From assembly GCF_964204645.1 (NCBI RefSeq), contig NC_134030.1, forward strand, positions 3,263,855-3,327,854: a stretch of DNA of 64,000 nucleotides, written 5' to 3'. This document shows, piece after piece, positions 1 to 64,000 of the stretch (position 1 is the first letter of the stretch; each line of letters begins with the position of its first letter). Source of the DNA: Tubulanus polymorphus (lineage: Eukaryota > Nemertea > Palaeonemertea > Tubulaniformes > Tubulanidae). Under the pieces are notes generated by a model. The model saw only the letters and a list, made by a program, of their open reading frames with translations. It ran no database searches and had not been told where the DNA came from. The position numbers and the translations under genes were made by a program.

Positions 1-9917
<9,917 letters not shown>

Positions 9918-44063: not shown

Positions 44064-44237
44064 CTTCAGTGCTTTGAGGTTCCTCCAGATTTTCCAGTTG
44101 ATTTGGGGCATTGTCAGTTGCATCATTTGGTTCGGCATCATTTGGTTCGGTGATCTCGGTTTCTAAGACCTCATCTGCAGTTGCTTGGGGCACTGTTTCA
44201 TCTTCAGCAACACCATCTTCAACATATTCAACCATTT
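44064..44237 (-). CDS. AC13: long acidic spacer exon, last recognised exon of the cluster
   Basis: 174 bp, acceptor TTTTTAG, donor GTAGAT, phase 1 to phase 1. Near copy of AC12 with EPNDAEPNDAT. If the donor is not used, the frame reads nine more residues to a stop at 44029-44031, which would make this a terminal exon. No other terminal exon was found. Confidence 0.7.
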
Positions 44238-44396
44238 CTAAAAACGAACGCGTATTGAATAAGTTTCAACTAAAGTTTTTGCCTTTTTTTCCCAAACAAA
44301 TGCCCTTTTCATTTTGTGCTACATCTAGCGTTGCCTCAGGATCCAAACCGAAATAACTGATACGATTCTGTACAACTTTTTGCACGATTTACCTAC

Positions 44397-44645
44397 CTTC
44401 ATTAGAGGGGAATCCATTGCACCATTTAGCACAGCGATAAGTTCGGTATCCTCCCATTCTTCTCCAGCATGAAGTCTTTTTGTGACATTTCGAATACCAT
44501 TTAAGGATTGCGTAATACGGTCTAACACAGAAATACATGCAGCGAACGTATCGACTTCTGTGACGTCTCCATCTTCTACGTATGCGTCTACGCAGCTTCC
44601 TCGAACGGTACATTCCTTCGTTCGATTCCTCTTTCGGTTCCATTT
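44397..44645 (-). CDS. CR17: six-Cys domain exon with Arg-rich lead
   Basis: 249 bp, phase 1 to phase 1 (acceptor TTGATAG, donor GTAGGT). Acidic lead MEPKEESNEGM, then RSRKLRRRIRRRWRRHRSR before CMYFC, loops 3-13-5-11-3, CWRRMGGYRTYRC, AKWC. Its Arg-rich run is longer than in CR16 and is a small-scale version of the CR8 expansion. Confidence 0.8.
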
Positions 44646-45036
44646 CTATCAAGTAATAAAGATATGCGTTAAGACATAAAATGAGTAAGACCAGAGTTTC
44701 TGAAACTGTATCCTCTACAAGATGAACAATACAATTATATATCATTCATATTCATGCAGGTATCAATTTAAAATTGCACCCTGCACCCCCTCAGACAGTC
44801 TGCAGCCTGTACCCTGTCATTCAATACTTAATCATCATTCTTCCAATTATTGATCATCCACAGTTCAAATATATCCAAAACTTCCCCTGTGACTACAAAC
44901 ATCCGACATTAGAAATTCTTTCATCACATACCCAAAGGCGGATTGTCCAGATTTTAGTGGTACAGGGCTGCAGATAGATTGATATCAGCATAAAACGAGA
45001 GCTAGAGAGGGATGACATGTATAATGTAAAATCTAC

Positions 45037-45210
45037 CTTCAGTGCTTTGGGGTTCCTCGAGATTTTCCAGTTGATTTGGGGCATTGTCAGTTGCATCAAT
45101 TGGTTCGGCATCATTTGGTTCGGTGATCTCGGTTTCTAAGACCTCATCTGCAGTTGCTTGGGGCACTGTTTCATCTTCAGCAACACCATCTTCAACATTT
45201 TCAACCATTT
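45037..45210 (-). CDS. AC12: long acidic spacer exon
   Basis: 174 bp, phase 1 to phase 1, acceptor TTTTTAG, donor GTAGAT. Encodes about 58 residues rich in Glu, Asp and Asn with no Lys or Arg, including EDGVAEDETVPQAT and a repeated EPNDAEP motif. Paralogue of AC13. Confidence 0.75.
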
Positions 45211-45369
45211 CTAAAAACGAACGCGTATTGAATAAGTTTCAACTAAAGTTTTTGCCTTTTTTTTCCAAATAAATGGCCTTTTCATTTTGTGCTACATCTA
45301 GCCTTGTCTCAGGATCCAAACCGAAATAACTGATACGATTCTGTACAACTTTTTGTACGATTTACCTAC

Positions 45370-45591
45370 CTTCATTACAGGGGAATCTATAGCACCATTT
45401 AGCACAGCGATAAGTTCGGTATCCTCCAATACTTCTCCAGCATGAAGCTCGTTTGTGACATTTCGAATACCATTTAAGGATTGCGTAATACGGTCTAACA
45501 CAGAAATACATGCAGCGAACGTATCGACTTCTGTGACGTCTGCATCTTCTACGGTCCATTCCTTCGTTTGATTCCTCTTTCGGTTCCATTT
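45370..45591 (-). CDS. CR16: six-Cys domain exon
   Basis: 222 bp, phase 1 to phase 1 (acceptor TTGATAG, donor GTAGGT). Acidic lead MEPKEESNEGM, a basic run RRRCRRHRSRYVRC, loops 3-13-5-11-3, CWRSIGGYRTYRC, AKWC. Two extra Cys, one in the basic run and one near the end (RFPCNE). Second unit of the 0.96-kb duplication. Confidence 0.8.
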
Positions 45592-45667
45592 CTATCAAGT
45601 AATAAAGATATGCGTTATAAAGACATAAAATGAGTAAGATCATCTCTGAAAACTAGATTCCACAAAC

Positions 45668-45736
45668 CGGTATTGTCATCTGATATTTCATCTGCCACTT
45701 CATCAAGTGAGTTGTTTTCCTCCGCAGTCTCTTCAG
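45668..45736 (-). CDS. AC11: acidic spacer exon
   Basis: 69 bp, phase 1 to phase 1, acceptor ATTTTAG, donor GTTTGT. Encodes EETAEENNSLDEVADEISD and DNT, with no basic residue. Confidence 0.7.
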
Positions 45737-45787
45737 CTAAAATAAACAAATACTTGTATCATTGGGAAAAGACTAAAACAAGTCGGC

Positions 45788-45950
45788 ATCCAGTTGGACA
45801 GTGGTGCATAAGTCCAAAAATGGTCTTAAATCGTAAGACTTGTTAGCTCAAGTTGTTAGATTAGCTTTAGAACTAAGATGATCTAACACTGGTCATAAAT
45901 CTAAACAATGAGTACGCAACAAGCCTCAGGTGCCAATTCTACAGTTCCTA
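45788..45950. mobile_element. Diverged foldback, TAAGACC family
   Basis: Contains the family's TGGTCTTAAATCGTAAGAC and TTGTTAGATTAGCTTTAGAAC segments between weakened ends. Located between AC11 and CR15. Confidence 0.5.
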
Positions 45951-46149
45951 GTTGAAAAACTTATTTGAAATTTAAATATCACACTCATCTCAGAACTGGG
46001 TTACCGGTATCTGGTCCGGAGGACAGCTTTTCTCATTGTGACTGTGATCATTTTATGAGTCACAAAACTTATTTTGGTTCACCTGAAATCACGTTATTGG
46101 TTTCCTCATTTTCGGAAAGTGGATACAAACACAAACCCTATAAACGTAC

Positions 46150-46329
46150 CATCCTGTTTCGGCATCCTCGCACACCAATTTACACATTTCCTCGCGCGAG
46201 TGACGCCCAAAGATTTCCAACAGACGGGATTTTTATGACAGCGACGATACCATTTCATAATCGGAAACGATGAAGTGCATACGTACACGCACGATACATA
46301 CCGCCCACTCCCCGCTCGAATAACACGAC
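46150..46329 (-). CDS. CR15: six-Cys domain exon with shorter second loop
   Basis: 180 bp, phase 1 to phase 1 (acceptor TTTCAG, donor GTACGT). Basic lead RVIRAGSGRYVSC, loops 3-12-5-11-3, CWKSLGVTRARKC, VNWC. It groups with CR16 and CR17 by the VNWC/AKWC ending and MKWY/LKWY motif. Confidence 0.8.
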
Positions 46330-46802
46330 CTGAAAAATCAACACTAATTTCTAAATGATAGTAAAATAAAGTATTCAAATGATCAGCTTACAATTATTGA
46401 TAGGTGAAAATAATCACAATCAGAAGAAAAACTATAAAAGTTAAACGTTTCTACTCTATTTACTTGAGATATTCTCAGTATCAGTAAACAGTTATGTACA
46501 GTCGTTCAGCAGAGTTTTATTGGGTATATTGTTATATGGAATCAACACTTGGATTCAATCAAATGAAATATCGATTAAAGCGATTACATCTCATTTTCAT
46601 GGGTATAAAACAGTTTTTCGTGCAAACGTTTTCGGGATCATACCCCGTCATTAGGTGAAATACATGTGAATCAAATGGAAAAACTACAAATTTGTATAGA
46701 CTTGTTACTAAAAGTACAATGCAACATTTTCTAGAATTTGTTTAGTTTAATCAAAGCCAAATTTGATAGTTTTCTATTTGAATATCGTTATGCATTACGT
46801 AC

Positions 46803-46856
46803 GATCAGTTTTCAAATCAACCGAATTTTCCGTAGCAGTTTCTTCAACCATTGAAT
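46803..46856 (-). CDS. AC10: acidic spacer exon
   Basis: 54 bp, phase 1 to phase 1, acceptor TTTTAG, donor GTACGT. Encodes SMVEETATENSVDLKTD; it has one Lys, unlike most spacers. Confidence 0.65.
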
Positions 46857-47045
46857 CTAAAACAGACAATATATCTTAACACTACACATTTGAATATAAA
46901 AGACAAAGTCATTATCGGACTATGGGGTCAGTTACTGAAAAGGGTTAGTTAAGTAGAATTTAGACTTCGCTAATGACAACAATCAACTCATTTCACTATA
47001 TAAATTGTGAAGTAAGATATTGAAGTGTTTAGGGCAAAAACTAAC

Positions 47046-47114
47046 CTTCAGTAGAGTCAGTAGGGGTTTGTTGAGCTTGAACTGGTTCATTATCATCATT
47101 CTCATCTTCAACGA
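47046..47114 (-). CDS. AC9: acidic spacer exon
   Basis: 69 bp, phase 1 to phase 1, acceptor CATTTTAG, donor GTTAGT. Encodes VEDENDDNEPVQAQQTPTD and STE, with no basic residue. Confidence 0.7.
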
Positions 47115-47312
47115 CTAAAATGAAGATAATGTCTGAATACATTGGACACCAAGGAATATACTTAATCAGTTATGGATCTGAGGCTTAATAACCCCACTGC
47201 ATTTCAGTCAATAAATGGACTGAGGTTTAGTCAATAACCAACCAACGATTAGTTTACCAACTGGTAAATAACCTTTTCATATAAATGTCAAATAATTTTC
47301 TGGTTACAATAA

Positions 47313-47473
47313 AGGGTCATTCATTTATTACGTATGCATTAGGGGAGGGGGGAGGGGTCAGTGCAATTGCGTACTGTAATGCTTAATGTATATGAAAAAA
47401 TGGCAGATTTTGCGTACAGAGGGGGGGTTGAAAAATTCAAATTTTATGCGTACGTAATAAATGAATGATCCCT
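47313..47473. mobile_element. MITE with AGGGTCATTCATTTATTACG ends
   Basis: About 160 bp. The left end AGGGTCATTCATTTATTACG is mirrored at the right as CGTAATAAATGAATGATCCCT. G-runs lie inside (47342-47357, 47419-47427). It sits immediately downstream of the CR14 donor and would be part of that intron. Confidence 0.8.
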
Positions 47474-47503
47474 AAAGCTAGTTTAACCCCTAATTAATCG
47501 TAC

Positions 47504-47749
47504 CTAAATCAGCAGGAAGGTTTTCATCATTAGCAGGAAGGTTTTCATCGATTTCTAAACTATCTTCGTCTGCATGTCGTAGTTTACAGGCCCTCGCACA
47601 ATGATAATATCGTCTCCCGAAATTTTTCAGCCAGCATCTCGATCTCATGTGACAAATCTTGTACATTCTGTACAATCTAAACGGTGACATCTTCAAGCAA
47701 TAGTAAATACACCGGAGGAACTTTGGTACACGCCTTCGCACAACTACAC
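47504..47749 (-). CDS. CR14: six-Cys domain exon
   Basis: 246 bp, phase 1 to phase 1 (acceptor CATACAG, donor GTACGA). Basic lead VVVRRRVPKFLRC, loops 3-14-5-11-3, CWLKNFGRRYYHC, ARAC, then an acidic tail with a duplicated DENLPA motif. Confidence 0.8.
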
Positions 47750-48090
47750 CTGTATGACAAAAAGATTGACAGAATACAAACAACTCTAAGATGATGGTCG
47801 TTCCTACATTCAGGGCGGATCAAGGGAGCAAGATCTGATCTGAGAAAGGAAATCTGCAGCACTCTAATCAACTCAACCGTCATTGTTTTATTTTTCAATC
47901 TTAGGCAGATTTTGATCGGTTTTCTATCGATTCCAGATTCTCTTCTGGTACATCCACTTCAACCAGAGTGGCATAATTTGTTAACCTGATAGAAGTGGCC
48001 AGTAGAGACGGGAGTAATGCGGAATCGCTGCTATGCCTATACCGGAATACATTCTATCAGTGTAAATCTGAAAGTAAGAAAATTGCTTAC

Positions 48091-48144
48091 GAGCGTTTTC
48101 AGGTTCAACCAATTCATTCTCAGCTTCTTCATCAGAACCGGCAG
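48091..48144 (-). CDS. AC8: acidic spacer exon
   Basis: 54 bp, phase 1 to phase 1, acceptor TTTGTAG, donor GTAAGC. Encodes AGSDEEAENELVEPENA; shares VEPEN with AC7. Confidence 0.7.
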
Positions 48145-48231
48145 CTACAAAACATCAAAATGGCAAAAATCATAATAAATCAAGGTTTTTGATATAATAA
48201 TGCGGTACGAACAATTCTACTGTTTACACAC

Positions 48232-48411
48232 CTTTATTCAGATGATAACGACAACGATATAAACATCTGGAAGCGACTCTAAAACGCCTTGAATATTTTG
48301 CCCAACACCAATATCTAAAGCCACACTTCCTCATCCAATTTTTAGCCTGGATCATGCCCGTATTAAGACATTGAGCCATGCAGATAACAAACTGCTGCCG
48401 GCCCGGTGCGG
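48232..48411 (-). CDS. CR13: six-Cys domain exon with longer fourth loop
   Basis: 180 bp, phase 1 to phase 1 (acceptor ATAACAG, donor GTGTGT). VICMAQC, loops 3-14-5-13-3, CWAKYSRRFRVASRC, LYRC. The two-residue longer loop and an extra Trp before C4 (RYWCW) set it apart. The frame's upstream Met lies in the intron. Confidence 0.75.
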
Positions 48412-48539
48412 CTGTTATCTCAAACAAGAAAATCTTCGAATGAATTTTCATGCGTTTTATGAATATGGACCAAAGTAATGCGCAAAAGCGTTAATAAAGT
48501 GCACCAAAATAAATAAAGACTAGTCAAAGTCTATGTTGT

Positions 48540-48670
48540 ATATATAAAAACCCACAATCTCAACAAAAAATGAAGGAAATATCAGTTACACTGACGTTTC
48601 GGATATTACTTCAATCCAGCTTCAGAGACTTGTTTAAATTACTCATTTACCGGATGAAGCTACGCTAGTA
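48540..48670 (-). mobile_element. Possible Penelope-like retroelement end
   Basis: On the minus strand, AAGCTGGATTGAAGTAATATCC and GAAACGTCAGTGTAACTG resemble the sequence just downstream of the coding region in many Penelope-like elements (a GAAGC...GAAACGT signature). No reverse-transcriptase frame remains. Similar fragments lie near 46590-46670, 50410-50520 and 63750-63800. Confidence 0.35.
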
Positions 48671-48924
48671 GCAAAAGCTGGTACTTAAAATTAAATCTAG
48701 TTAACATTCAAAGTACGACCTGCCTTCACGTTTAGAGATTTATCTAAAAATCTCTCTTTCAGTTACCTCTACACAACATCTATGAAACATTTCTCTTTTA
48801 GTATTTGTTCATCCATGTTGTGGTTTTTTACATAATAAGTGCAATTTAGTATAGAATATGATATTCACTTTTGTTTATATAGTAAATGCAGCTTGTTTAA
48901 ACTGGTTTAATATGAATAAATTAC

Positions 48925-48978
48925 CTATGAATGAGTTTTCTGGTTCCACTGCTGTCTGCTCCTCATTTGTGTCAATTT
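48925..48978 (-). CDS. AC7: acidic spacer exon
   Basis: 54 bp, phase 1 to phase 1, acceptor TTAAAG, donor GTAATT. Encodes IDTNEEQTAVEPENSFI, with no basic residue. Confidence 0.65.
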   Translation of the reverse strand, partial: KLTQMRSRQQWNQKTHS

Positions 48979-49293
48979 CTTTAAATAAAAAATAAATCAT
49001 CATACATCAAATGTTAGTGTAAATGAAAGCATTTCCCATACCCTAGGGTTTTTACTTTGAGTTAGGATGTGGTCACCTGATATGTACAAACAACCCCACA
49101 TAGCCAGCAAGCGTTTTGATTGGTTTAGAGCTGGTCATCTGATGCGAACAAATGTAAACAACGCAGTTTACACTAACAACAGCGATACTGAATGCATAGT
49201 CAAAGTGCACATTTTGACTCGGACCGGTTCTACAGTTATTGGTCATCTTCAGGGACAATAAGGTTATAACATAACTATCTAAAGTATACGTAC

Positions 49294-49476
49294 CATCAAT
49301 GCGATGTCTACATCTGTACACACATTTGTACGCTTTATATCCAGCTTTACGCGCCCAACAGTATTTACTGTAACCACACTTTATGAACCATTTTGTCGCA
49401 TAGTATTTAGTGATGTGTAAACAGTAACGCATACAGGAACGGAATCCATTGACTTCATCGGTCGCTTCATCATCAA
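49294..49476 (-). CDS. CR12: six-Cys domain exon
   Basis: 183 bp, phase 1 to phase 1 (acceptor TTTCAG, donor GTACGT). Acidic lead DDEATDEVN, then SCMRYCLHITKYY, loops 3-14-5-11-3, CWARKAGYKAYKC, VYRC. Strong similarity of its C-terminal half to CR13 (CLYRCRY) suggests a subgroup. Confidence 0.8.
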
Positions 49477-49927
49477 CTGAAACAGACAATATTTTTCAAT
49501 GGTTAGCGTTAAAATCTAGTTTATGTAATTCATATAAAAAACTCATAATTTTAACGTTCAGTTTCAGAAAACTCTATTCATAATTCATAGTTAAGTTCAG
49601 TTTAGTCCTGCATCCTGGTAACTTAACTATACTGCTAATTGAATAGGTAAGATTTTAATAATGGCTCATAGAATCAAGTTGAAATGTCAATACTTTCTAT
49701 GTTTTACTTTGTAATTCTGCGTCTTTTCTTCGATCGACTTTGACAGACGCTTGTCTGTAGAGACGAGCTGTACTGCCAAAATTGACAAGGTTAAAGCACC
49801 AAATATTCTTTCAAAATAAAAGTTCCAGTTTCACGAAAAGGTTGTAAACGCATAAATTTCGGTTTATTAGCTGCTGATTATTTGTTTCAACTTTTTCATG
49901 AAACTGGACCTCGAAGATAAATCTTAC

Positions 49928-50191
49928 TCAAAGCAAAATTATCAGTGTCACCACCATCAGGGACAGTATCTTCAGTTTCTAAATTTTTATCAATATCCGC
50001 TAATACATCAGATATATCGCTAACGCGACATTTCATGAAACAAGATGAAAGTTTCGGTCCGAAATATCTCTTCCAACAACTCGTATCCGTCCTACATCTC
50101 TTCAGGACCATCATTAACTTTCGTTTAGTAATTCCTAAACATTTAGTTAAACATCTTAGGCTCAATGTTAAACGAGCATTTTCTGGACCAG
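49928..50191 (-). CDS. CR11: six-Cys domain exon
   Basis: 264 bp, phase 1 to phase 1 (acceptor TTTTCAG, donor GTAAGA). CLTKCLGITKRK, loops 3-14-5-11-3, CWKRYFGPKLSSC, acidic tail ISDVLADIDKNLETEDTVP. Here the acidic spacer is fused to the domain exon, so spacer and domain need not be separate exons. Confidence 0.8.
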
Positions 50192-50666
50192 CTGAAAATA
50201 ACATTTCTACAATTACTCCGTGGAAGAAAATGTATACACGTTGTAACTTTATAGAAATAAAAAAGAGTCTGAAATGTTTAGTAGTTAATTGAATGTTTCA
50301 AATCGGTTTATCAAAATAGTCATATATAAAGTAAAGCTGTAGGGGAGATGTTTTAACCTGTGGTCAAATCAAAGATGAAGAGCACTTGAATGAGTTAACT
50401 TGATCTCATCAAAAGTATGAGTTTTCTCTTCTTATTTCCACTAGTGCAGAATAGCTTCATCAGGTGAATTCTACTGATAAAGCTACTATGCACTAGTAGA
50501 AAAAGTAGCAAAATCTCATGTTCTCGATTACATTAATCCATCCCCAAGTTTACTTAAGTAAAGTTACAACTGTCGCGGCAATACAGCGTTTAACGGATTC
50601 ACAATCGATGATTTGGTTTAGCTGCAAACTTTTGAAATAAAACAAACATCATAAGATAAATCTTAC

Positions 50667-50960
50667 TCAACGCAACATTATCGGTATCGCCACGACCAGG
50701 GACCGTATCTTCAGCTTCTATGTGTCTATAAATATCTGCTAATATTTCAGATATATCTCCAGGTTTCCGGCTACATTTCACAATGCAAAACATTCTCGGC
50801 CCGAAATATCTCTTCCAACAATAGACATTCGTCCTACATATCTTCATGACCAGGATCAACTTGCGTTTGGTAACTCCTAAACATTTAGTTAAACACTTTA
50901 TTACAACGCGAGCCTTACTTGCTGTCGTTTGTCCAATTGCGGTTTCTGATTCTGGACCAT
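50667..50960 (-). CDS. CR10: six-Cys domain exon
   Basis: 294 bp, phase 1 to phase 1 (acceptor CTTTCAG, donor GTAAGA). Lead GPESETAIGQTT, then KCLTKCLGVTKRK, loops 3-14-5-10-3 with CWKRYFGPRMFC, then a long acidic tail (ISEILADIYRHIEAEDTVP). It and CR11 are a diverged tandem pair, including the tail. Confidence 0.8.
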
Positions 50961-51392
50961 CTGAAAGAATAACATTTCCATAATTAATCATTGCGGAAGA
51001 AACTGCCTGACGACGGCTAATAGTCTTTAGCAAAAAACGTCGCGCAAATATATAAACCTTTTACTCAAGAACTTTTCATCTTTGACTGAATTATTGTGGG
51101 ATTTCTTTCATTCCTTTTACACGGATATCGTGTATCTTTTCGATTAAGTTATGAATAAATAAAATAATTCCATTTTCTTTTAATCGAAAGATGGTCGATG
51201 AAATTAAGGTCGTTGAAATAGACAGATATTGCTTAAAACCAATGCATGAAAACATTGTGAAAATACGAAGACAACCGATGACATTTAACAGAATAGAAAT
51301 AATCTTTTCTTGTGTCTCCGCTGTTAAATGACTTATCGCATTTCACTGGTGTTTCAGCACATTATAGAGAGTCATGTGGTGCCAGACACAGC

Positions 51393-51400
51393 TATAAATA
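51393..51400 (+). promoter_or_regulatory. TATA box of the VKORC1 gene
   Basis: TATAAATA on the plus strand about 30 bp upstream of a start-like region near 51425-51450 (TTCATTCAGTCAGT). It precedes a non-coding first exon ending at 51482 with a GTAAGA donor. Confidence 0.65.
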
Positions 51401-51424
51401 ACACACGCACACAGCAGGCAACAG

Positions 51425-51864
51425 GTAGAACTAAATTGTCTTCATTCAGTCAGTAAGGAGCAAGAAATCAACACGCGCTCAGGTAAGATTAGTTCACTGT
51501 CGCTCATTCATAACAAACAACTCACAGCAAAATTACCGCATACTTTATGTATCAGACTAAATCCATCGGTTGAATTTTATAAGATGAATTTGAAAACTCA
51601 TATCTTTAGAAATATTCAAACTTGCAACTAATCTTATTCATCTGTAAATTTTAATTCTTGATAACGATAATTCACGTCGTATTTTAGATAACTACTTCAC
51701 CTGCCCAGTTCATCATATACAGATATTAGGCACACTGATTACAAGTAGAACGAAAATAGAAAAATATATTATCACTATTATATTTTCATGTGTTTTGCTG
51801 AATAAATTTGGACGAAATGACAAAATTTCAAAATTTTTCAGGATCAAGTCTATAAAGAATCATC
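51425..51864 (+). other. VKORC1 5'UTR: non-coding exon, intron and leader
   Basis: A probable first exon of about 55 bp ends at 51482 (CGCTCAG then GTAAGA). The intron ends at TTTTTCAG (51841) and a 23-nt leader runs to the ATG at 51865. The exact start is inferred from the TATA box. Confidence 0.5.
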
Positions 51865-52725
51865 ATGGTGGTAAAAGTCGGAGAACTTTTCATGTCTAAT
51901 GAGACCGATCATATGATGCTGAATTGTCTGGGTATTTTCATATCCGTGTACTCCTTGTATATAGAACTTAAAGCGTTTAAAGACAAGAATTACAGAGCGT
52001 TTTGTGACTTCAATGAACACATGAGTTGTACCAGAGTATTGACATCAAAGTATGTTTAAAAATAAAATATCAAATTTCAATCCGATCAAAGAAGTCATTA
52101 AGAGTGTGATTATCATATTATTTCATGTTTCTATAGATATGGACAAGGCTTCGGTGTTGTGGAAGTTCTGTTTGGAAAAGAAAGCTACCTCAACGTACCA
52201 AATTGCTGTCTAGGAATTGTCTTCTACTGCCTTCAATTAATCCTGGGTAAGTTAAACTAAAACTAGTCGACCTCGCTAAAGCCGCCCTAATTAAGGATGA
52301 ATTATTCAAATGCAACTTACGCGTATAAGTAAATAGAATCGGAAATACAAATTGAGACTCAGTAGAGAGAACTAAAGTAATTTGACAACTGTCAAGGATA
52401 TATTTTCAGCTTGACAATTTGAATAAATCTTGAGTATAGAATACTATAGTTAATGTGGTTTGTATTTACAGGTTCAATAGAAAGTGAATGGGCGATTTAT
52501 CTGTTGGTTATAACATCGATAATAGCGTGTATCGGTTCGGTTTATTTGGGAACCGTTTTATTTGTTATATTGAAAGATTTCTGTCTCGTTTGTATTTGTA
52601 CGTACATCTTAAACGGTTGCTTAATGTATCTTAACTACCAGAAATATATAGCTATGGATTTCATAGTATCGACACCGACTCAAGCCCCACCCCCACCGGT
52701 AATGAACATGCATCCTGAATACTAG
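51865..52725 (+). CDS. VKORC1: Vitamin K epoxide reductase complex subunit 1 (VKORC1-type)
   Basis: ER membrane thiol oxidoreductase that reduces vitamin K epoxide and quinone to the hydroquinone needed by gamma-glutamyl carboxylase. Exons 51865-52049, 52137-52246, 52472-52725 join in frame to 182 residues, a little longer than human (163). The four catalytic cysteines are present: loop Cys 47 (YRAFC) and Cys 55 (MSC), and the CXXC at 136-139 (FCLVC), a constant offset of 4 from human 43, 51, 132 and 135. The TY of the anticoagulant-binding TYA motif is kept (CTYI). Four hydrophobic segments lie near 19-38, 85-99, 106-133 and 136-155. A Pro-rich tail (PTQAPPPPV) replaces the human basic tail. 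The gene lies on the strand opposite the Cys-rich cluster, between CR9/AC6 and CR10. An ATG at codon 10 is an alternative start. Confidence 0.95.
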
Positions 52726-53030: not shown

Positions 53031-53184
53031 TAATTCGTAAGTAAATTTTACTTTTGTTTCAAGCGCATTCTAGATCAATGAAGATAAACAACTCAATAAA
53101 AGTGAACTAATCTCAAATATGAGATAACCACTGACGTAAACACTCTGCGCGTGTTGTAACAATACTACATTAATCCCACACTAA

Positions 53185-53594
53185 AGCCCGGCGCACACCC
53201 TTGCGATTGATCGTATGATCCTTTCATCGCATGGTTTTATCGCATCATCGTAAAGGTATGCGGTGGCATCCGGAGCCGATTTCATCGCATCATCGCTTCA
53301 TCGCAACAAATCAAACTTGTTTGATATTTTGCATGTGATTTTTCCGTGCGATGAAAATCGTAAAGGTGTGCGGGCTACGCTGTCGATGTTCAGAACGAAC
53401 ATTTTTAGTAGCCAATCGGAATTAACGATGAAGCAATCACGGGATGTTCAAAATGGCGGCTCAGTCACGTGATTGAATCCAACTCGAGGCCCTCATAAAA
53501 AATCGCAAAGGTATGCGGGAATGATGCGATTTTCGTCGTGTCATCGCATGCGATGATACGATGACACGATGATCGCAAAGGTGTGCGCCCAGCT
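53185..53594. mobile_element. MITE, probable PIF/Harbinger type
   Basis: 410 bp with ends AGCCCGGCGCACACCCTTG and, inverted, AGCTGGGCGCACACCTTTG. It is flanked on both sides by TAA (53182-53184 and 53595-53597), a 3-bp target duplication typical of PIF/Harbinger. GCGATGA-type subrepeats fill the interior. No coding capacity; the plus-strand frame inside is chance. Confidence 0.75.
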
Positions 53595-54591: not shown

Positions 54592-54660
54592 CTTCACTCA
54601 GTTCATCATTGCTTTCTTCGTTTTCCTCTCCATCAGCAGACGGAACTTGCGATTCTTCAT
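54592..54660 (-). CDS. AC6: acidic spacer exon
   Basis: 69 bp, phase 1 to phase 1, acceptor TTTATAG, donor GTAAGA. Encodes EESQVPSADGEENEESND and ELSE. Shares a PSAD motif with AC4, indicating common origin. Confidence 0.7.
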
Positions 54661-54793
54661 CTATAAAAAAAAGAAGAATATTTTGTAATGCATGTGGTTG
54701 AGATTGGCTAAGATTGTGGCTAAGATTGCCACATCAAATAGTCCAGGTTCTGAGTAAAATAAGCAAGACCGCTGCTAATGCTTAAAAACTAAC

Positions 54794-54847
54794 CTTCAGA
54801 TTGTGGTAAATTGTCTTCGATCGATTGTTCCGGTTCGCTGTATTCAT
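54794..54847 (-). CDS. AC5: acidic spacer exon
   Basis: 54 bp, phase 1 to phase 1, acceptor TTATAG, donor GTTAGT. Encodes EYSEPEQSIEDNLPQSE, with no basic residue. Confidence 0.7.
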
Positions 54848-55350: not shown

Positions 55351-55518
55351 CATTGATTTTGAAGGGTCTGCACTCGGGCAGACATTGGTATACTCTGTAT
55401 CCGAGAGTTTTCATCCAACAAGAAGGGAAGAGCCCACACTTTTTCTCGGCGTAAGCAATTTTTGACAGAGTAACATTCGAACATTTATTCATACAAGAAT
55501 CAAATTTGTCGATAAAAT
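55351..55518 (-). CDS. CR9: six-Cys domain exon
   Basis: 168 bp, phase 1 to phase 1 (acceptor GTCCACAG, donor GTATGT). DSCMNKC, loops 3-14-5-11-3, CWMKTLGYR and CLPEC. It is less basic than most and carries an N-glycosylation sequon (NVT) after C2. Last Cys-rich exon before the VKORC1 gap. Confidence 0.8.
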
Positions 55519-55737
55519 CTGTGGACGAACAAAAACAGTATAGGAAAATATTGCAAGGCTGCATCTATAAAGCGATCAATACATTCATACGTGTTTGACA
55601 GGAGGACATTTCCAACTCAGGGACACAGTTCAACATCTAACCTGAGAACTGTGTAATGTACAGGCATTCTTACTTACATATGAACATGCTGGCCCTGAAA
55701 GATGTAGAAACTTGATCCCCTTAATAGCCAGGGGCCA

Positions 55738-56012
55738 GGGGCCGGTTCCATAGACAGGGCTTAGACTTAAGAACGGTCTAAGACTAACTAAGTTCTATAG
55801 CCAATCTAACAACTTAAGACCAGTCTTAAGGTTTAAGACCACTTTTGGTCTTAAGTCTTGACTATGGAACCGACCCCAGTTGCACAGTCGTGACTTAAGT
55901 CCAAAAGTGGTCTTAAATCTTAAGACTGGTCTTAAGTTGTTAGATAGGCTAAAGAACTAAGTTGGTCTTAGACTGGTCTTAAGTCTGAGCCATAACTATG
56001 CAACCGGCCCCA
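55738..56012. mobile_element. Two adjacent foldback MITEs, TAAGACC family
   Basis: Copies at 55738-55877 and 55871-56012 lie back to back in inverted orientation, giving a larger palindrome. Each has GGTTCCATAG-type ends and TTAAGACCAGTCTTAA cores. Located in the CR9/AC4 intron. Confidence 0.8.
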
Positions 56013-56304
56013 GGTCTCATTTGCAAGATACAATCAATTCTAGCATAGGTATGGAAGTAAGCCGAGGACTGCCTGCGCGTACCAACTTTTAATCATTCCC
56101 TTAATCATGAATATACGTATGCCAAATACATAGAATTATACATTTGATAAACAGACAAAAATATATCGAAAAAAGATCCAATACTTTTGAAACATGTTTC
56201 AGGTATTTTCAAAACAAAGTTTCCATGCAATATTTATGAGGAATCCTGGAAATGAAAACATGCAATTCTAGGACACAATTGTGGGAGCAAAAAAAGAGAC
56301 AAAC

Positions 56305-56367
56305 CTTCTTCATCAGCTGATGGCGAATTTTCCTGTTCTTCCATTTCAGAATCTTCTGTTGGGTTTG
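56305..56367 (-). CDS. AC4: acidic spacer exon
   Basis: 63 bp, phase 1 to phase 1, acceptor TTGATAG, donor GTTTGT. Encodes NPTEDSEMEEQENSPSADEE, with no Lys or Arg, right after the most basic exon of the cluster. Confidence 0.7.
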
Positions 56368-56407
56368 CTATCAAAAAAGCATAACCAATCATTATTTACT
56401 GATCTAC

Positions 56408-56520
56408 AGGGTCCAGTTCCACAGTTCTGAGTTAAGATTTGACCATGGGTTAAAACATTGAAAATGAACTAACTTTAACTCAGAGTTAACTCTAACTCAC
56501 AACTGTGGAACTGGGTCCTG
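56408..56520. mobile_element. Foldback MITE, CAGTTCCACAG family
   Basis: A single dispersed copy of the unit that forms the 33433-34050 array: opens GGGTCCAGTTCCACAG and closes CTGTGGAACTGGGTCC. It sits in the intron just downstream of CR8. Confidence 0.8.
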
Positions 56521-56553
56521 ATCTACTAATCGAAATGAAAAGCAAACACTCAC

Positions 56554-57393
56554 AATTTTCAGAGAATTCATTAGATTCAATGATGTTCCGGTCATCGGGA
56601 TATTCAGTTAACAAAGCAGTGGTGACAACTTCTTTCATATCGAAATCTTTGTGACCAATGCATCCGATTACACAACGAATCGCTCTAAAACCTGCCTTTT
56701 TGATCCAACATGCACGCGATGTACCGCATTGAGCTATCCATTTCAATATCTTACGCTTTGATCTTCCGAGACATCTCAATAAACAACGAGTATAACCACG
56801 TCTCCCACGTCTCCCACATCTACGGCGTCTACGTCTACGTGTTCTTCTACGTCTACGGGTTCTACGTCTACGTCGTCGGGTACTTCTTCTGCGTCGGTAT
56901 CTACGTCTACGGTACCTGCGTCTGCGGACACGGTATCTACGCCTGCGGACACATCTTCTTCTGCGGACACGGTATCTACGCCTGCGGACACGGTATCTTC
57001 TTCTGCGGACACGGTATCTTCGTCTGCGGACACGGTATCTTCTTCTGCGGACACGGTATCTACGCCTGCGGACACATCTTCTCCGTCTGCGGACACGGTA
57101 TCTTCTTCTTCTGCGGACACGGTATCTTCTTCTGCGGACACGGTATCTACGCCTGCGGACACATCTTCTTCGTCTGCGGACACGGTATCTTCTTCTTCTG
57201 CGGACACGGTATCTTCTTCTGCGGACACGGTATCTTCTTCTGCGGACACGGTATCTTCCTCTGCGGACACGGTATCTTCTTCTGCGGACACGGTATCTTC
57301 GTCTGCGGACACGGTATCTTCTTCTGCGGACACATCTTCGGTATCGTCTTAGTGGTGAAGTCTTGGATGAGGCTAACTCTGGTATCATATCAC
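56554..57393 (-). CDS. CR8: giant exon, about 185-residue Arg/Tyr-rich repeat plus six-Cys domain
   Basis: 840 bp, phase 1 to phase 1 (acceptor ATTACAG, donor GTGAGT). After a short lead (IPELASSKTSPL) come about 20 heptads of the type RVRRRRY encoded by a 21-bp minisatellite, then Arg/Thr runs, then a normal domain (RCLLRCLGRSKRK, loops 3-14-5-11-3, CWIKKAGFR) and an acidic tail (TEYPDDRNIIESNEFSE). The reading frame is fixed by its continuity into the domain and by phase. The other two frames through the repeat would give acidic VSAEEDT or CPQKKIP repeats and connect to nothing. Four repeats carry extra Cys (RRCVRR). Protein would be extremely cationic; nucleic-acid, membrane or polyanion binding is possible but unproven. 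Confidence 0.8.
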
Positions 57394-57795
57394 CTGTAAT
57401 CATTGAATGACATAAACAAATATTCAAATGAAAGACAACAAAAAACTAGTAAATAACTTTTTATATATTAAAACTGGATCCAGTTTCAAAGTTCTTGGCA
57501 AACATTCACGGTTGTCAGGTCATGAAGTATCTTGAGTCGAAACATTGAAAATTTACTATTTCCAAGTAAACGAACTAAACTAAGGACCGCACAACTGCAT
57601 CCAGAACTGCAAAATTGAGTCTGAACTGCGGAACTGCGTCCAGAAGTGCGGAACTGGGTGCAGAACGAACTGCGGAACTGAGTCTAGTTCTGCAGAACTG
57701 GGTTCTGTCTTATCTATTTATATCAGTGCACGTTCGTGCAAGGTGCATCACATAAATAACAAAGTATGAATGATTCTAGTTTAAAACTAACCTAC

Positions 57796-58026
57796 CTTCA
57801 ACTTTGGTCATTTCCATATTGTCAATCATCAACCGATTTTCAATACGTTTTCGACAGCTTTTAAAACAATGATAAGCTTTCTTGCCGATTTTACCGATCC
57901 AACATTGTAGATTAATATTACACTCGATTCCCCATTTTATCAATTTCAATCGACCCAAGTGGGCGCATCTGCCCAAACATTTCACGAAGTGGCTTAAATT
58001 GTCTTCATTGAGTGCAGCAACAAATT
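57796..58026 (-). CDS. CR7: six-Cys domain exon
   Basis: Same structure as CR5: acceptor CATTTAG, donor GTAGGT, loops 3-14-5-11-3, with CAHLGRLKLIKWG after C2. The second loop has a His-Leu-Gly-Arg start unlike the LGR-K start of most members. First unit of the 1.5-kb duplication. Confidence 0.85.
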
Positions 58027-58737
58027 CTAAATGTGCGAGAGTGAATTGTACATGGCGCGCTACCCATAAACAGCTTACAACAATCCACAACCAAAACCCA
58101 GTGCAGTGATAAGTAGATAATTACAGTGTTCCAGTTCTACGGTTCTCACTCAAGAGTTAAACACATTCGAAACAAACTAGTCCAAACTGAAACTGACCAT
58201 CAACTCAACAATCACACCTAACATCAACTTTCAAGTCAACTTTCACTTAAAATTTTAAGTCAAATTTAACTTCAACTCTGAAGACACAGTGAAATTCAAC
58301 TATAGAGCGAATTTCAACTCAGAAATTAGAACAATGGAACTGGATACTGTGTTATACTATAATATATACTGTTAATGTGATTGTGTGCTATAAATATGAT
58401 TACATAATGTGTTTTTATCTTTCTCGTGTCATTGAACTGTAACATTAAACTTCATCGCTTCGAAGATTTGTACCCATCACTAATAATAATGTTGTCTCTA
58501 GTGTAACATGAAACATGTTGTATTTCTAGAAGTTTTCACTCACAGTTCAATGGCCACAAAAGTAAATAAATTGGGATCAGTAGCTCAAAAGGTGATTAGT
58601 CAACCAATGGATAACTGACATACAGATAATAACAATTACAACTGGCTTGTTACTACCATATAGTATTTATCCAATGATTAACATAAACCAACTTTTAAGC
58701 AACCGCCCCTCCCCCGTCATATTGATAAAGTTCTGAC

Positions 58738-58980
58738 CTTGAACGGCAGTGACCTCCACACTACCATGACGGGAGTTCATCTCATTGTCTTCAACGATGA
58801 ACAAACACCTGCTGACGCATTTAGCAGCTTTACGCCCAATTTTTCTCAACCAACATTTGTAATCGGTGCGGCATTTCGCAAAGTATTTCAGCATTTTCCA
58901 GTGACTTTTTTTCAAACATCGTCCCATACATTTCAGGAATTTGTGCTTATTTTCTTCATTAAGTTCAATGAGTTCCGAAT
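58738..58980 (-). CDS. CR6: six-Cys domain exon
   Basis: Same structure as CR4: acceptor GTTACAG, donor GTCAGA, phase 1 to phase 1, loops 3-14-5-11-3, acidic lead and tail around a basic core. It belongs to the first unit of the 1.5-kb duplication, and its intact frame and splice sites argue both copies are in use. Confidence 0.85.
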
Positions 58981-59352
58981 CTGTAACAAAATCAATATTT
59001 TTCACTCATATTCTACACACTAAGAATCAACTCATTCACTGTCGCCATAGTTCTTCCCATTTTCAACTATCTCGTAGTTGGCACTGAAACTATTTAGAGA
59101 ATGAAGCTGAGTTTGTTCACACTATCTGCCAATCATTCGTGTGTCCCAGTACAACTATCTTAGCAGTGAATAACCCCTTGAGGGTTTTAACTGCGTCCAG
59201 AAGTGCGGAACTGGGTGCAGAACGAACTGCGGAACTGAGTCTAGTTCTGCAGAACTGGGTTCTGTCTTATCTATTTATATCAGTGCACGTGCGTGCAAGG
59301 TGCATCACATAAATAACAAAGTATGAATGATTCTAGTTTAAAACTAACCTAC

Positions 59353-59583
59353 CTTCAACTTTGGTCATTTCCATATTGTCAATCATCAACCGATTTTCAA
59401 TACGTTTTCGACAGCTTTTAAAACAATGATAAGCTTTCTTGCCGATTTTACCGATCCAACATTGTAGATTAATATTACACTCGATTCCCCATTTTATCAA
59501 TTTCAATCGACCCACGTGGGCGCATCTGCCCAAACATTTCACGAAGTGGCTTAAATTGTCTTCATTGAGTGCAGCAACAAATT
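59353..59583 (-). CDS. CR5: six-Cys domain exon (copy of CR7)
   Basis: Phase 1 to phase 1 (acceptor CATTTAG, donor GTAGGT). Contains KCLGRC, loops 3-14-5-11-3, CWIGKIGKKAYHC and a tail with MIDNMEMTKVE. The frame continues upstream to a hydrophobic MWIVVSCLWVARHVQF, which could be read as a signal peptide and an alternative start, but the good acceptor and family-wide phase favour an intron there. Differs from CR7 by one residue (Val for Leu). Confidence 0.85.
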
Positions 59584-60253
59584 CTAAATGTGCGAGAGTG
59601 AATTGTACATGGCGCGCTACCCATAAACAGCTTACAACAATCCACAACCAAAACCCAGTGCAGTGATAAGTAGATAATTACAGTGTTCCAGTTCTACGGT
59701 TCTTGTTAAAATTTCACTCAAGAGTTAAACACATTCGAAACAAACTAGTCCAAACTGAAACTGACCATCAACTCAACAATCACACCTAACATCAACTTGA
59801 CACAGTGAAATTCAACTATAGAGCGAATCTCAACTCAGAAATTAGAACAATGGAACTGGATACTGTGTTATACTGTAATATATACTGTTAATGTGATTGC
59901 GTGCTATAAATATGATTACATAATGTGTTTTTATCTTTCTCGTGTCATTGAACTGTAACATTAAACTTCATCGCTTCGAAGATTTGTACCCATCACTAAT
60001 AACAATGTTGTCTCTAGTGTAACATGAAACATGTTGTATTTCTAGAAGTTTTCACTCACAGTTCAATGGCCACAAAAGTAAATAAATTGGGATCAGTAGC
60101 TCAAAAGGTGATTAGTCAACCAATGGATAACTGACATACAGATAATAACAATTACAACTGGCTTGTTACTACCATATAGTATTTATCCAATGATTAACAT
60201 AAACCAACTTTTAAGCAACCGCCCCTCCCCTGTCATATTGATAAAGTTCTGAC

Positions 60254-60496
60254 CTTGAACGGCAGTGACCTCCACACTACCATCACGGGAGTTCATCTCA
60301 TTGTCTTCAACGATGAACAAACACCTGCTGACGCATTTAGCAGCTTTACGCCCAATTTTTCTCAACCAACATTTGTAATCGGTGCGGCATTTCGCAAAGT
60401 ATTTCAGCATTTTCCAGTGACTTTTTTTCAAACATCGTCCCATACATTTCAGGAATTTGTGCTTATTTTCTTCATTAAGTTCAATGAGTTCCGAAT
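60254..60496 (-). CDS. CR4: six-Cys domain exon (copy of CR6)
   Basis: Phase 1 to phase 1 (acceptor GTTACAG, donor GTCAGA). Acidic lead (SELIELNEENKH), then KCMGRC, loops 3-14-5-11-3, CWLRKIGRKAAKC, and an acidic tail. The core is strongly basic, about 15 Lys/Arg in 42 residues. Differs from CR6 by one residue in the tail (Asp for His in the NSR-GSV context). Confidence 0.85.
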
Positions 60497-60917
60497 CTGT
60501 AACAAAATCAATATTTTTCACTCATATTCTACACACTAAGAATCAACTCATTCACTGTCGCCATAGTTCTTCCCATTTTCAACTATCTCGTAGTTGGCAC
60601 TGAAACTATTTAGAGAATGAAGCTGAGTTTGTTCACACTATCTGCCAATGTATTCGTGTGTCCCAGTACAACTATCTTAGCAGTGAATAACCCCTTGAGG
60701 GTTTTGATAGCTTCTGGAGTCAATTTTCCCAGGGTTTCAATAAATATACGCCCAAAACCTTTAAGAGGTTTTGAGAAGGATCAACTACTCATGGTGGCAG
60801 AACTGAAACTATGAGTTACATGTAGTGGCAATGGTAGTACAACCGGAACTATGAGATATTTCTATCAAATTAAAACATGTTAAAATGAATTAATTGAAAT
60901 TGTATTGAAATAACTAC

Positions 60918-60989
60918 CTTCTGGTTCACTATTCAGTTCGATGTCATTTTCATTTTCTGATTCCGGTTCAATTTGATTTTCATCAACTT
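60918..60989 (-). CDS. AC3: acidic spacer exon
   Basis: 72 bp, phase 1 to phase 1, acceptor TTTTTAG, donor GTAGTT. Encodes VDENQIEPESENENDIELN and SEPE, with no Lys or Arg. Confidence 0.7.
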
Positions 60990-61114
60990 CTAAAAACAAG
61001 AATGCATTTAATTGAAAACTGAACTGGTCATAAGTTGATGATCACCTCGTGAAACACTGAACAAAATTCTGCGGCAAAACAACATAGTTACTGAAGAATA
61101 ATGGACTTCCTTGA

Positions 61115-61188
61115 CCGCAACTTTGACAAGCAGAGATTCGATCCTCTCATGCTGGCAAGCGAGGATCGACCAGGTGCACCAGTGGTCA
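61115..61188 (-). repeat. tRNA-Gly-like SINE head
   Basis: On the minus strand, A-box TGGTGCACCTGG, an anticodon-arm-like CTCGCTTGCCAGCATGAG (GCC in the loop) and B-box GGATCGAATCTC occur in tRNA order and spacing. The acceptor stem is absent, so it is a tRNA-derived SINE and not a tRNA gene. It lies in the intron between CR3 and AC3. Confidence 0.5.
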
Positions 61189-61492
61189 TTCTTTTGAGCT
61201 TCGATTTCTTCTATATTGCGATCAAAATCAAATAATTTTTTCTCTGGAGTCAATTAACTATTGTTCATAAATACATCAAACTCAAAGAATATCATAGCAA
61301 AGTCAAGAATATCTGTTTAGAGGCTTGTATGAGTTGAAAAATCCAGAATTCGAAGTTGATTGAAAATAAATGTATGACTGACGCCTGCTGGCGGCTTAAG
61401 CTCGATTTATGAGTTGTGTGTCGGAGTTAAAGATCTTTTTCATAGAAGCATCTAGAAAAGACTGATGTCTGAATTGTAACAGGATTACTAAC

Positions 61493-61642
61493 CACGGAAT
61501 TTATAGATGCACTTGTTGAGACATTGAAGAGCCTTCCAGCCAAGTTCTGACATCCAGCAAACCCTATTAATTTTACACTTTGAGAACAACTGCATAGCTT
61601 TATACAGATCTATACCACAGCACCAGGCCATGCAATTCACAT
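61493..61642 (-). CDS. CR3: compact six-Cys domain exon
   Basis: 150 bp, phase 1 to phase 1 (acceptor TTTTAG, donor GTTAGT), almost nothing but the domain. Loops 3-14-5-11-3, with CMAWC, CWMSELG and CLNKC, plus one extra Cys right after C2. It is the least basic member. The frame is too short to appear in a simple open-frame search, so similar exons may be missed elsewhere. Confidence 0.75.
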
Positions 61643-62162
61643 CTAAAACAACAGCCAGTAACAATCATAATTCAAACCTAATTCATCCCACGGAGAAACT
61701 GAGTTTGCATGCGTACAGATTTTGATTTGTGACTGTTCAGGGCTGCCAACCACTATAATAGTATTATCAGCAGTAAGTTGAAATTTGTTGAGTAATATTT
61801 CATCGAAATATAAAAGACAATGCGATCAATAATCAATAGGGGCAAGAAAAAGCCTCAATTTCTGTTATACATCGAATGTTGAATCAGTATTTCTCAAGCC
61901 AAAACCACGGAAAAGTTGGCAGCTCTCTGTTCGTCAGTTCATCGTCTGTGGATATACATGTATCTTGGTCTGCGATGATGGGGGAATAATGACAGAAGAA
62001 AGTGTTCATTTCATTCATGTATCATGCAAGAAATGAGAAATAGCTAGTAGGGACTTAGATATGAAGGTAACATTCTATAATGAGTACACTTGTAGCAACC
62101 TAAATACAAGCTTAGCAAGATACATAGATATCAAATATTCAGGGAATGAGAAATGCTCTTAC

Positions 62163-62207
62163 CTTCATCATTGTTTTCCTCAATTGTAGGTAAATTGTCA
62201 AAACCAT
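62163..62207 (-). CDS. AC2: acidic spacer exon
   Basis: 45 bp, phase 1 to phase 1, acceptor TTAACAG, donor GTAAGA. Encodes GFDNLPTIEENNDE: no Lys or Arg. Separates CR2 from CR3. Confidence 0.65.
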
Positions 62208-62486
62208 CTGTTAATATAAAAATAAGAAATTCTTACACTATCACAATTTGAAATCGTTATCATTATCATTTTCATGAATTGAAAAATTTTGAGATAAGAG
62301 TTTAGGGTAGTGAAAGATATTTGTAGAATGCTTGGAATGTCACAATAATGAAATATCTTGTCAGTTACACACAGATTGGTCGATGTTTACCACTGGATAA
62401 ATATTGAAAATTCAGCTTTAATTTTAACTCATCTTCTGAAACTCTTAAACAGATTTTTCAGCAACTGACCCCTGGTATAGAACTAC

Positions 62487-62687
62487 CTTTTCTTATTAAC
62501 CATGTTGTCATACACCTTGGATAGCAAAACATTACTCCCAATCCAGCTAGTTTCAACCAACACTTGAAACTTCTTTTGCATTTTACACATTCATGAATTA
62601 CTTTGAGTATTTTCTGCGGCAAACATTTTGACATGCAGCAAATGAATCTTAAGGTGCGAGAGTATGGTCCACTTTTAGGTTCAGCAA
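62487..62687 (-). CDS. CR2: Cys-rich domain exon with two extra cysteines
   Basis: Phase 1 to phase 1 (acceptor TCTGTAG, donor GTAGTT). Standard loops 3-14-5-11-3 with CWLKLAG and YPRC, but with one extra Cys before C1 (FICCMSKC) and one inside the second loop (IHECVKC). The pair could form a fourth disulfide. It has no acidic lead. Confidence 0.8.
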
Positions 62688-63132
62688 CTACAGAAATATA
62701 GGAAAAATGTGCCAGCACAGTAACTGTCTACGCAAGCAAGATCGAAGTTTTTGAAGAAATGTTCTATCAAAGCTTTTTTTGTGCTCTCGCAATTTTCGAA
62801 GTTACAAATGTGAGAATAATTATAACATGCATCCGGCATTTAACAATGCAGTATTTGAAATGTCTAAAATAAACTGGAGAAATTCATCTATTTATGAATC
62901 CCAAAAACAAACTATGGACATACAGCAGACTGCACTTGCCTTGGATCTTGCGGGACCAGGCAAGGAAGCAAGCAAATTTGGGGGCAGTCGGAGTGGCGAA
63001 GGTTGTCAGTCATCTGATCACAAATTGGAGCAGGAAAATTTCAAAAATTTTATCCAGCAGGGCATGTGATAATCGAAGGCAGTATTTAACTGTATGATCA
63101 TATTTTGTGACTGGGTCAATCCGAATAAAACA

Positions 63133-63244
63133 CTGGATCCGGTTCCATAGTTGTGGCTTAGAGTTAACTCGGAGTTAAGATTAGTTCATTTTCAATGTTT
63201 TAACTCGGGGTCAAATCTTAACTCACGACTGTGGAACCGGGCCC
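63133..63244. mobile_element. Foldback MITE, CAGTTCCACAG family
   Basis: Opens GGATCCGGTTCCATAG and closes CTGTGGAACCGGGCCC; same interior as the 130-bp array units. It lies within about 30 bp of the CR1 donor. Confidence 0.8.
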
Positions 63245-63276
63245 TGTTGTATCAACTGTTATATATTATAACTCAC

Positions 63277-63501
63277 CCGTGGTGACAAGAGCCTTGCGTT
63301 TAACGTAACAACGAGGGTGACAGAATAATGTTTTCATGCCAGTTCGTTTCAGCCAACACGGGAACCAGTAACGACACCTCTTGAAATAGTGAATCATTTG
63401 TATCTTCGGTCGTCCTAAACACTTCGCCATACACTTAATGAATTTATATTTACGAAGGGCACTATCATCGGTGATCGCTTCTAATTCATTGGAAGACTCT
63501 T
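63277..63501 (-). CDS. CR1: six-Cys domain exon
   Basis: Phase 1 to phase 1, acceptor TTTTAG, donor GTGAGT. An acidic lead (EESSNELEAITDD) precedes a basic domain beginning KFIKCMAKC. Cys loops are 3-14-5-11-3 with Trp directly after C4 (FPCWLKRTG) and HPRC at the end. The strongly basic domain after an acidic lead suits a secreted peptide precursor. Family unrecognised. Confidence 0.8.
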
Positions 63502-63960
63502 CTAAAATCATAAATTGAAAGAAGTGAAATCATAGAAGATATACACATTGTAGTTGAAACAAAGTGTGCAAAATATCATGGGAACAAGTACCAACTGCTT
63601 CAAACTGTAATCAATTGGGATAAGCGATTTCAGTTAGATACCCCAGTAATGTAAATTCAATAGATATTCCATTGCAAAGGCTCAAAGATTTGCATTTTGT
63701 AACTGTTAAGAAGACTGGTAGTACATTGCAGGTCAAATTGATGACAAAAAATACACGCTTTCGTTACTAGTGCATAGTAGCTTCATCAGGTAAGACATTT
63801 GTACTTTTGAGTGAAGTACTTTTATAATGGATTCAAGTTGAAACCCTTGGAATTTGATTTCTTTTCTCTGATCAGGACTATGGGCTCTTTATTTTATGGT
63901 TTTAAACACTATAGAAGGGGAGCCAAGACATTAGTTTGACTGGGTATTTAGAAGTGCTAC

Positions 63961-63984
63961 CTGGTGTCTGCGCATCAGTGATTT
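63961..63984 (-). CDS. AC1: 24-bp acidic micro-exon of the Cys-rich cluster
   Basis: TTTTAG acceptor, GTAGCA donor, phase 1 at both ends; encodes ITDAQTP plus split codons. It is the most 5' exon of the cluster in the window, so the gene continues beyond the right edge. The short length lowers confidence. Confidence 0.5.
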
Positions 63985-64000
63985 CTAAAACAGAGTCATC

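Follow-up and report, generated by a model that had tools for sequence, protein, structure and literature searches.

The window analysed here, 64,000 nucleotides of contig NC_134030.1 (positions 3,263,855 to 3,327,854 of the forward strand; assembly GCF_964204645.1) from the palaeonemertean Tubulanus polymorphus, contains an array of small, cysteine-rich modules encoded on the minus strand. A regular-expression search in a six-frame scan of the window detects 17 matches to the pattern C-x3-C-x(12-14)-C-x5-C-W-x(9-12)-C-x3-C, all of them on the minus strand between positions 44419 and 63433, the same number as in a preliminary description of this locus, and 0 matches on the plus strand. The pattern appeared 0 times in 200 windows of 64 kb simulated with a first-order Markov model, and its reversed form has 0 matches in the real window; the array of six-cysteine modules is far beyond chance. 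With a looser pattern and a larger search space of 93,446 bases, comprising the window and a further 29.4 kb to its right, which is upstream for the minus strand, those 17 matches are found again and no further ones. An additional module, denoted D0, is split by an intron and escapes the motif scans. The alignment of the 17 modules (D1 to D17) contains exactly seven invariant columns, namely the six cysteines (C1 to C6) and the tryptophan that follows C4, which are the positions originally singled out as the only fully conserved ones. Two further features were missed at that stage: a glycine five residues past the invariant tryptophan, carried by 12 of the 13 modules that are 42 residues long, and a hydrophobic or aromatic residue shortly upstream of C1 that is seen by eye in most modules.

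The exons of the array can be joined into one predicted gene on the minus strand, with 35 exons that yield a single frame of 2026 residues and 33 of 34 introns in phase 1. Seventeen of the 18 modules occupy one exon each, with AG and GT borders and phase 1 on both sides, and between most of the module exons there are short acidic exons of the same phase. Module D0 is encoded in two exons (64730-64390 and 64099-63961; coordinates above 64000 are on the scale of the window and lie outside it) that are separated by a phase-0 intron, the only intron of the model that is not in phase 1. Upstream of D0, past the right end of the window, there are two further acidic exons and the predicted first exon (66368-66308, 2.4 kb past the window edge), which encodes a hydrophobic, signal-peptide-like start and ends in phase 1. 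By the criteria of the scan, this is the only candidate for a signal-peptide exon between 43.7 and 74 kb. The terminal exon (43746-43712, with a stop codon at 43714-43712) was picked by eye from the candidates listed by a scan, being the first that is in phase and agrees with the acidic spacers; the same scan leaves room for several other terminal exons. The predicted chain opens with a signal peptide and an acidic N-terminal stretch, continues with the 18 modules, most of them set apart by acidic spacers, and closes with a short acidic tail.

This anatomy, which is supported by calculation, suggests that the array is not a gene cluster: the exons appear to fit a single 18-module secreted precursor. 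The large family of separate exons envisaged previously is not borne out, given this fit and the outcome of a genome search. A 622-residue query spanning D10 to D16, the only modules used for this search, gives at least 22 matches in the own genome; of those listed, 21 are at this locus and one, with E = 2.3, is on contig C10. The possibility that the modules are separate genes was likewise rejected, since the criteria of the scan yield a single signal-peptide exon candidate in the vicinity of the array. The array itself stands; its limits in the preliminary description, 44064 and 63984, require correction. The right end is not the start of an exon and falls inside the second half of D0 (exon 64099-63961), and, at the left, the predicted gene ends at 43712.

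In the direction of the gene, the part of the model that lies in the window starts with the 3' part of D0 (63961-64000, in an exon that continues to 64099), followed by D1 (63277-63501), D2 (62487-62687), a spacer (62163-62207; charge -5, no cysteine), D3 (61493-61642), a spacer (60918-60989; charge -10), D4 (60254-60496) and D5 (59353-59583). Next are D6 (58738-58980) and D7 (57796-58026), which are tandem copies of D4 and D5, respectively, and D8 (56554-57393), with an arginine-rich run upstream in frame. A spacer (56305-56367; charge -9), D9 (55351-55518) and two more spacers (54794-54847 and 54592-54660; charges -6 and -10) precede D10 (50667-50960), its older duplicate D11 (49928-50191) and D12 (49294-49476). 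The remainder consists of a spacer (48925-48978; charge -5), D13 (48232-48411), a spacer (48091-48144; charge -7), D14 (47504-47749), two spacers (47046-47114 and 46803-46856; charges -8 and -4), D15 (46150-46329), a spacer (45668-45736; charge -10), D16 (45370-45591), a long spacer (45037-45210; charge -19), the tandem copy of D16, D17 (44397-44645), and a tandem copy of the long spacer (44064-44237), upstream of the terminal exon. All these exons are part of the joined model; in addition, D1 to D17 are the modules matched in the motif scan, and D6, D7, D11 and D17 were also examined in the comparison of duplicates. The spacers come from the scored list, with the single exception of 48091-48144, which lies outside this list and was added by eye.

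An alternative is that the 2026-residue chain is an artefact of joining and that the locus harbors two or more transcription units, undergoes heavy alternative splicing or includes partly dead exons. Because all exons other than the two of D0 and those at the ends are symmetric, any subset of them would splice in frame, and the 3.6-kb intron before D10 holds a gene on the other strand. Furthermore, in scripted scoring, the acceptor sites of D2 (4.3), D8 (4.2, one of the lowest values for a module exon), D16 (1.2, with a stronger one at 45645) and D17 (1.2, with stronger ones at 44714 and 44699) have low scores, and the choice of the terminal exon is not unique. On the other side are the lone signal-peptide candidate and the in-frame indels in the exons of three duplicate pairs that are described below, and division of the locus in any of these ways seems rather improbable.

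The single gene appears to have grown by tandem duplication. A 1.5-kb unit encompassing D4 and D5 is copied as D6 and D7 with 98-99% identity (within 57632-60705), and a 0.95-kb unit is present twice, with D16 and D17, at 93% identity (within 43721-45639). Given these two recent intragenic duplications, the number of modules may vary between individuals. D10 and D11 are an older pair, and in the domain tree neighbouring modules group together (D10 with D11; D15, D16 and D17; D5 with D7) although the inner branches are mostly weak (2 of 14 are starred). In the three duplicate pairs, all five exon indels are divisible by three (27 nt; 12, 15, 3 and 6 nt; none in D4-D5/D6-D7) vs 3 of 15 in the introns (1, 52 and 11 nt; 3, 5 and 2 nt; 8, 11, 9, 3, 1, 5, 7, 13 and 1 nt), which indicates that the exons evolve as coding sequence, so that coding selection, too, is supported by calculation. 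Support for the description of the modules as fast-evolving is mixed: divergence in the D16/D17 pair is 4.0% in exons and 3.1% in introns, but in D10/D11 it is 23% in exons vs 52% in an intron that may be misaligned, and in D4-D5/D6-D7 it is 0.4% vs 0.7%. By a simple estimate, the nonsynonymous (dN) and synonymous (dS) divergence are 0.29 and 0.51 for D10/D11, and 0.055 and 0.063 for the D16/D17 exon. In these comparisons, the duplicates keep the reading frame, while their residues can change quickly.

The module cores are 40-44 residues long and strongly basic, as proposed from the start, with a net charge of +4 to +13 and 159 lysines or arginines vs 9 aspartates or glutamates in the 711 core residues of 17 different modules. 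Outside the cysteines and the tryptophan, the mean pairwise identity is 19% (66 pairs among the modules that are 42 residues long), and D2 and D3 each contain one extra cysteine beside a core cysteine. Both halves of the module show a maximum of the hydrophobic moment at angles typical of helices (z of 4.7 at 100 degrees in the first half; in the second, 5.0 at 90 degrees and 3.7 at 100; the null consists of shuffles with C and W fixed), with z values that are inflated because the 17 modules are related. From an input alignment of 15 of the 18 modules, AlphaFold2 predicts four helices both for D12 (2-14, 18-28, 32-39 and 41-56; model mad231cad004a; predicted local distance difference test score, pLDDT, 94.1; predicted template modelling score, pTM, 0.76) and for D4 (2-12, 16-26, 30-36 and 39-54; model m9d88b283e6c2; pLDDT 91.3, pTM 0.69). 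In these predictions, C1 and C2 are located in helix 1, C3 at the end of helix 2, C4 and the tryptophan in helix 3, and C5 and C6 in helix 4, with the conserved glycine at the break between helices 3 and 4. The four predicted helices can be read as two kinked antiparallel arms. The helical two-armed shape, predicted with high confidence for D12 and D4 and supported by calculation to this extent, agrees with the stapled helical hairpin suggested in the preliminary description, although each arm is broken in two. The sums of the cysteine positions are 43, 43 and 46 for C1-C6, C2-C5 and C3-C4, as an antiparallel hairpin needs, and, as argued from this spacing, nested bonds C1-C6, C2-C5 and C3-C4 are the most likely arrangement.

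Searches for relatives of the module give consistently negative results, in line with the initial failure to match it to a named family. In Pfam, the 17 cores and 15 flanked modules show no convincing match, only hits of single members with a best E-value of 0.02; module profiles run against the PDB sequences give one chance hit at E 8.6 and no others; and Foldseek against the PDB yields nothing convincing (best E 3.4). Searches of a protein database, whose coverage of animals is not established, detect no convincing relative either, and none of the papers listed in literature searches for animal families and nemertean peptides names this cysteine pattern in its title or the opening of its abstract. 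Saposin-like peptides, such as NK-lysin and granulysin, combine a nested three-cystine helical bundle with cationic membrane activity; they are about 75-80 residues in length and have a cysteine spacing other than that of the modules. The Pfam saposin model finds none of the 17 cores or 15 flanked modules at E up to 10, with HMMER filters that drop most matches above about 0.1. For the searched libraries, the designation of the module as unrecognised is supported; that of unique is not.

The favored explanation, to which somewhat less than an even chance is assigned, is that the product of the gene is a secreted precursor from which cationic, helical defence peptides stapled by disulfides would be cleaved after secretion. 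We infer the cleavage, the antimicrobial action and the charge-balancing role of the spacers from the parallels with plant alpha-hairpinins, turgencins and insect precursors (PMC7191063, PMC7024374 and PMC2853521). Under this scheme, each module would adopt its fold in the secretory pathway, with two kinked, antiparallel helical arms packed into a compact bundle and stapled by disulfides, and the acidic spacers would offset the positive charge of the modules during synthesis and storage; 15 of the 18 modules are followed by a stretch with a net negative charge. After secretion, proteases would cleave the chain within the spacers or next to them and set free a mixture of related cationic, amphipathic peptides, whose targets might be microbial membranes or surfaces. 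Tandem duplication of exons would give rise to new modules, and, with phase-1 introns on both sides, such duplication keeps the frame. If this scheme is correct, the symmetric exons make the mechanism of growth visible, the charge design is unusual, and the gene provides a compact three-cystine helical scaffold in 17 natural variants for peptide engineering studies.

Several observations weigh against this explanation. Exon selection required an open frame and a suitable phase and, for most spacers, also took acidic content into account, so that the absence of internal stops and the acidity of the spacers are in part consequences of the selection. No net acidity is seen in the stretches that follow D1, D7 and D13, and the D16/D17 exons are no less diverged than the introns. 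No consistent processing site is apparent: a dibasic pair is present in the stretch after 10 of the 18 modules and absent after 8, and, outside the arginine-rich run, R-x-K/R-R is found at three positions only, all shortly upstream of D16 or D17. The run itself, about 200 residues in frame before D8 (134 arginines in 202), has no evident function within a precursor of peptides. It is largely a 21-bp minisatellite (56909-57333, 20 copies) that encodes RRRRYRV repeats in the frame of the module. In another frame of the same strand, this minisatellite encodes acidic, spacer-like EEDTVSA repeats; that reading was rejected because there are stops before and after the repeat, and the basic frame continues into the module without a stop.

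The lack of a universal cleavage site is compatible with the main rival, namely that the product is an uncleaved mucus, adhesive or matrix protein. Such a chain of cationic beads and acidic linkers could condense through charge-driven complex coacervation, whether in an egg coat, a mineralising matrix, an adhesive or mucus. The alternation of polycation and polyanion blocks, the tyrosine- and arginine-rich repeat before D8, and the variable surface residues on a conserved skeleton of cysteines and tryptophan all fit this possibility. However, the Pfam scan detects no known matrix domain in the modules, and a mean identity as low as 19% outside the skeleton, over the same 66 pairs, is more reminiscent of a peptide cocktail than of a repetitive polymer. 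A structural role appears somewhat unlikely; if it is the true one, the protein would be a block polyampholyte of natural origin that is relevant to adhesives and mucus.

The surroundings of the predicted gene include several other elements. The 3.6-kb intron between the spacer at 54592 and D10 contains, on the opposite strand, a complete-looking vitamin K epoxide reductase (VKOR) gene (51865-52725, plus strand, with the end set by eye), whose exons, once joined, match Pfam VKOR at E 1.6e-24. VKOR is an oxidoreductase family linked to disulfide formation; the position of the gene is curious and probably coincidental. Dispersed repeats of 90-140 bp, in both orientations and 78-86% identical, are found in introns (56400-56518/63135-63254, 45790-45931/55876-56015 and 45809-45904/55761-55853) and perhaps represent a short mobile element. 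The region 53180-53580 contains inverted copies, identified by eye, of gcgatgatgcgat-type sequence and resembles a non-autonomous element. Elsewhere on the minus strand of the window, there is a collagen-like coding sequence (2409-3958; Pfam Collagen E 1e-33 for 3164-3958) and an open frame of 320 residues (25286-26245) that has no Pfam match at E 0.001.

Among known systems, insect antimicrobial precursors are described as combining acidic propeptides with repeats of modules (PMC2853521). At the level of the individual module, the closest parallel in cystine arrangement among antibacterial animal peptides is with turgencins A and B of the ascidian Synoicum turgens, cationic peptides with six cysteines paired C1-C6, C2-C5 and C3-C4 and a helix-loop-helix-like structure; their gene and precursor were not known to the authors of the respective report (PMC7024374). 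The modules are likewise cationic, with six cysteines none of which are adjacent, the exceptions being D2 and D3 with their extra cysteine. The turgencins differ in their CXMAC and KKXGG motifs and in having helices that are unstable in water. By eye, neither motif is present in any module, and the cores, at 40-44 residues, exceed the 35-36 residues of turgencins (PMC13208793).

Nemerteans themselves produce small, helical, disulfide-linked secreted peptides, including neurotoxin B-IV, which is a disulfide-linked helical hairpin, cytotoxin A-III and parborlysins; the A toxins, which are lysine-rich with three or four disulfides, and parborlysins are strongly basic (PMC6410017). The helical, cationic, cysteine-rich scaffold of the modules is in keeping with these peptides and could point to a venom or deterrent precursor, with cytolytic or channel-acting products. 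However, the B peptides contain four disulfides in 55 residues and parborlysins are 9.4-10.1 kDa in size, and the available part of PMC6410017 names no multi-module precursor. Among the PDB sequences, where B-IV (1VIB) should be present according to a legend in PMC6410017, the module profiles detected no relative, and a venom function is considered improbable.

With respect to overall architecture, the nearest counterparts of the predicted gene that were found in print are the multi-module precursors of plant alpha-hairpinins (MiAMP2, Sm-AMP-X, Tk-AMP-X and EcAMP). These precursors consist of a signal peptide, 5-12 modules, linkers and a C-terminal part, and are cleaved into antifungal or trypsin-inhibiting peptides (PMC7191063). 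The predicted model has the same multi-module layout, with a signal peptide, 18 modules that bear two CxxxC pairs, spacers and a tail; in place of a plain helical hairpin, the AlphaFold2 models of D12 and D4 show four helices that can be read as two broken arms. The differences are as follows: alpha-hairpinin modules contain four cysteines, and their long precursors, with 5-12 modules, are encoded in wheat by genes without introns (PMC7191063), whereas the gene described here is split by introns and encodes 18 modules, all of which have two more cysteines (C3 and C4) and the tryptophan. Several alpha-hairpinins inhibit trypsin via an arginine in a loop (PMC7191063), and, with a similar scaffold and precursor, the gene could by analogy encode a multi-headed protease inhibitor; the predicted turn between C3 and C4, however, is variable and lacks a constant arginine or lysine, which makes this function highly unlikely.

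Multi-module precursors of cysteine-rich peptides are a known design; the module, for its part, has a real chance of being a new fold family. A broader proposal, put forward tentatively as possible rather than probable, is that the modules constitute a new animal family of small disulfide-rich helical folds and that the alpha-hairpinin cassette has in this gene its first counterpart among animals, with 18 diversified cationic peptides, neutralising acidic exons and phase-1 exon duplication. The likeness to alpha-hairpinins more likely reflects convergence than descent, and, if the proposal is correct, animals and plants would have independently arrived at the same route from one precursor to many stapled helical defence peptides.

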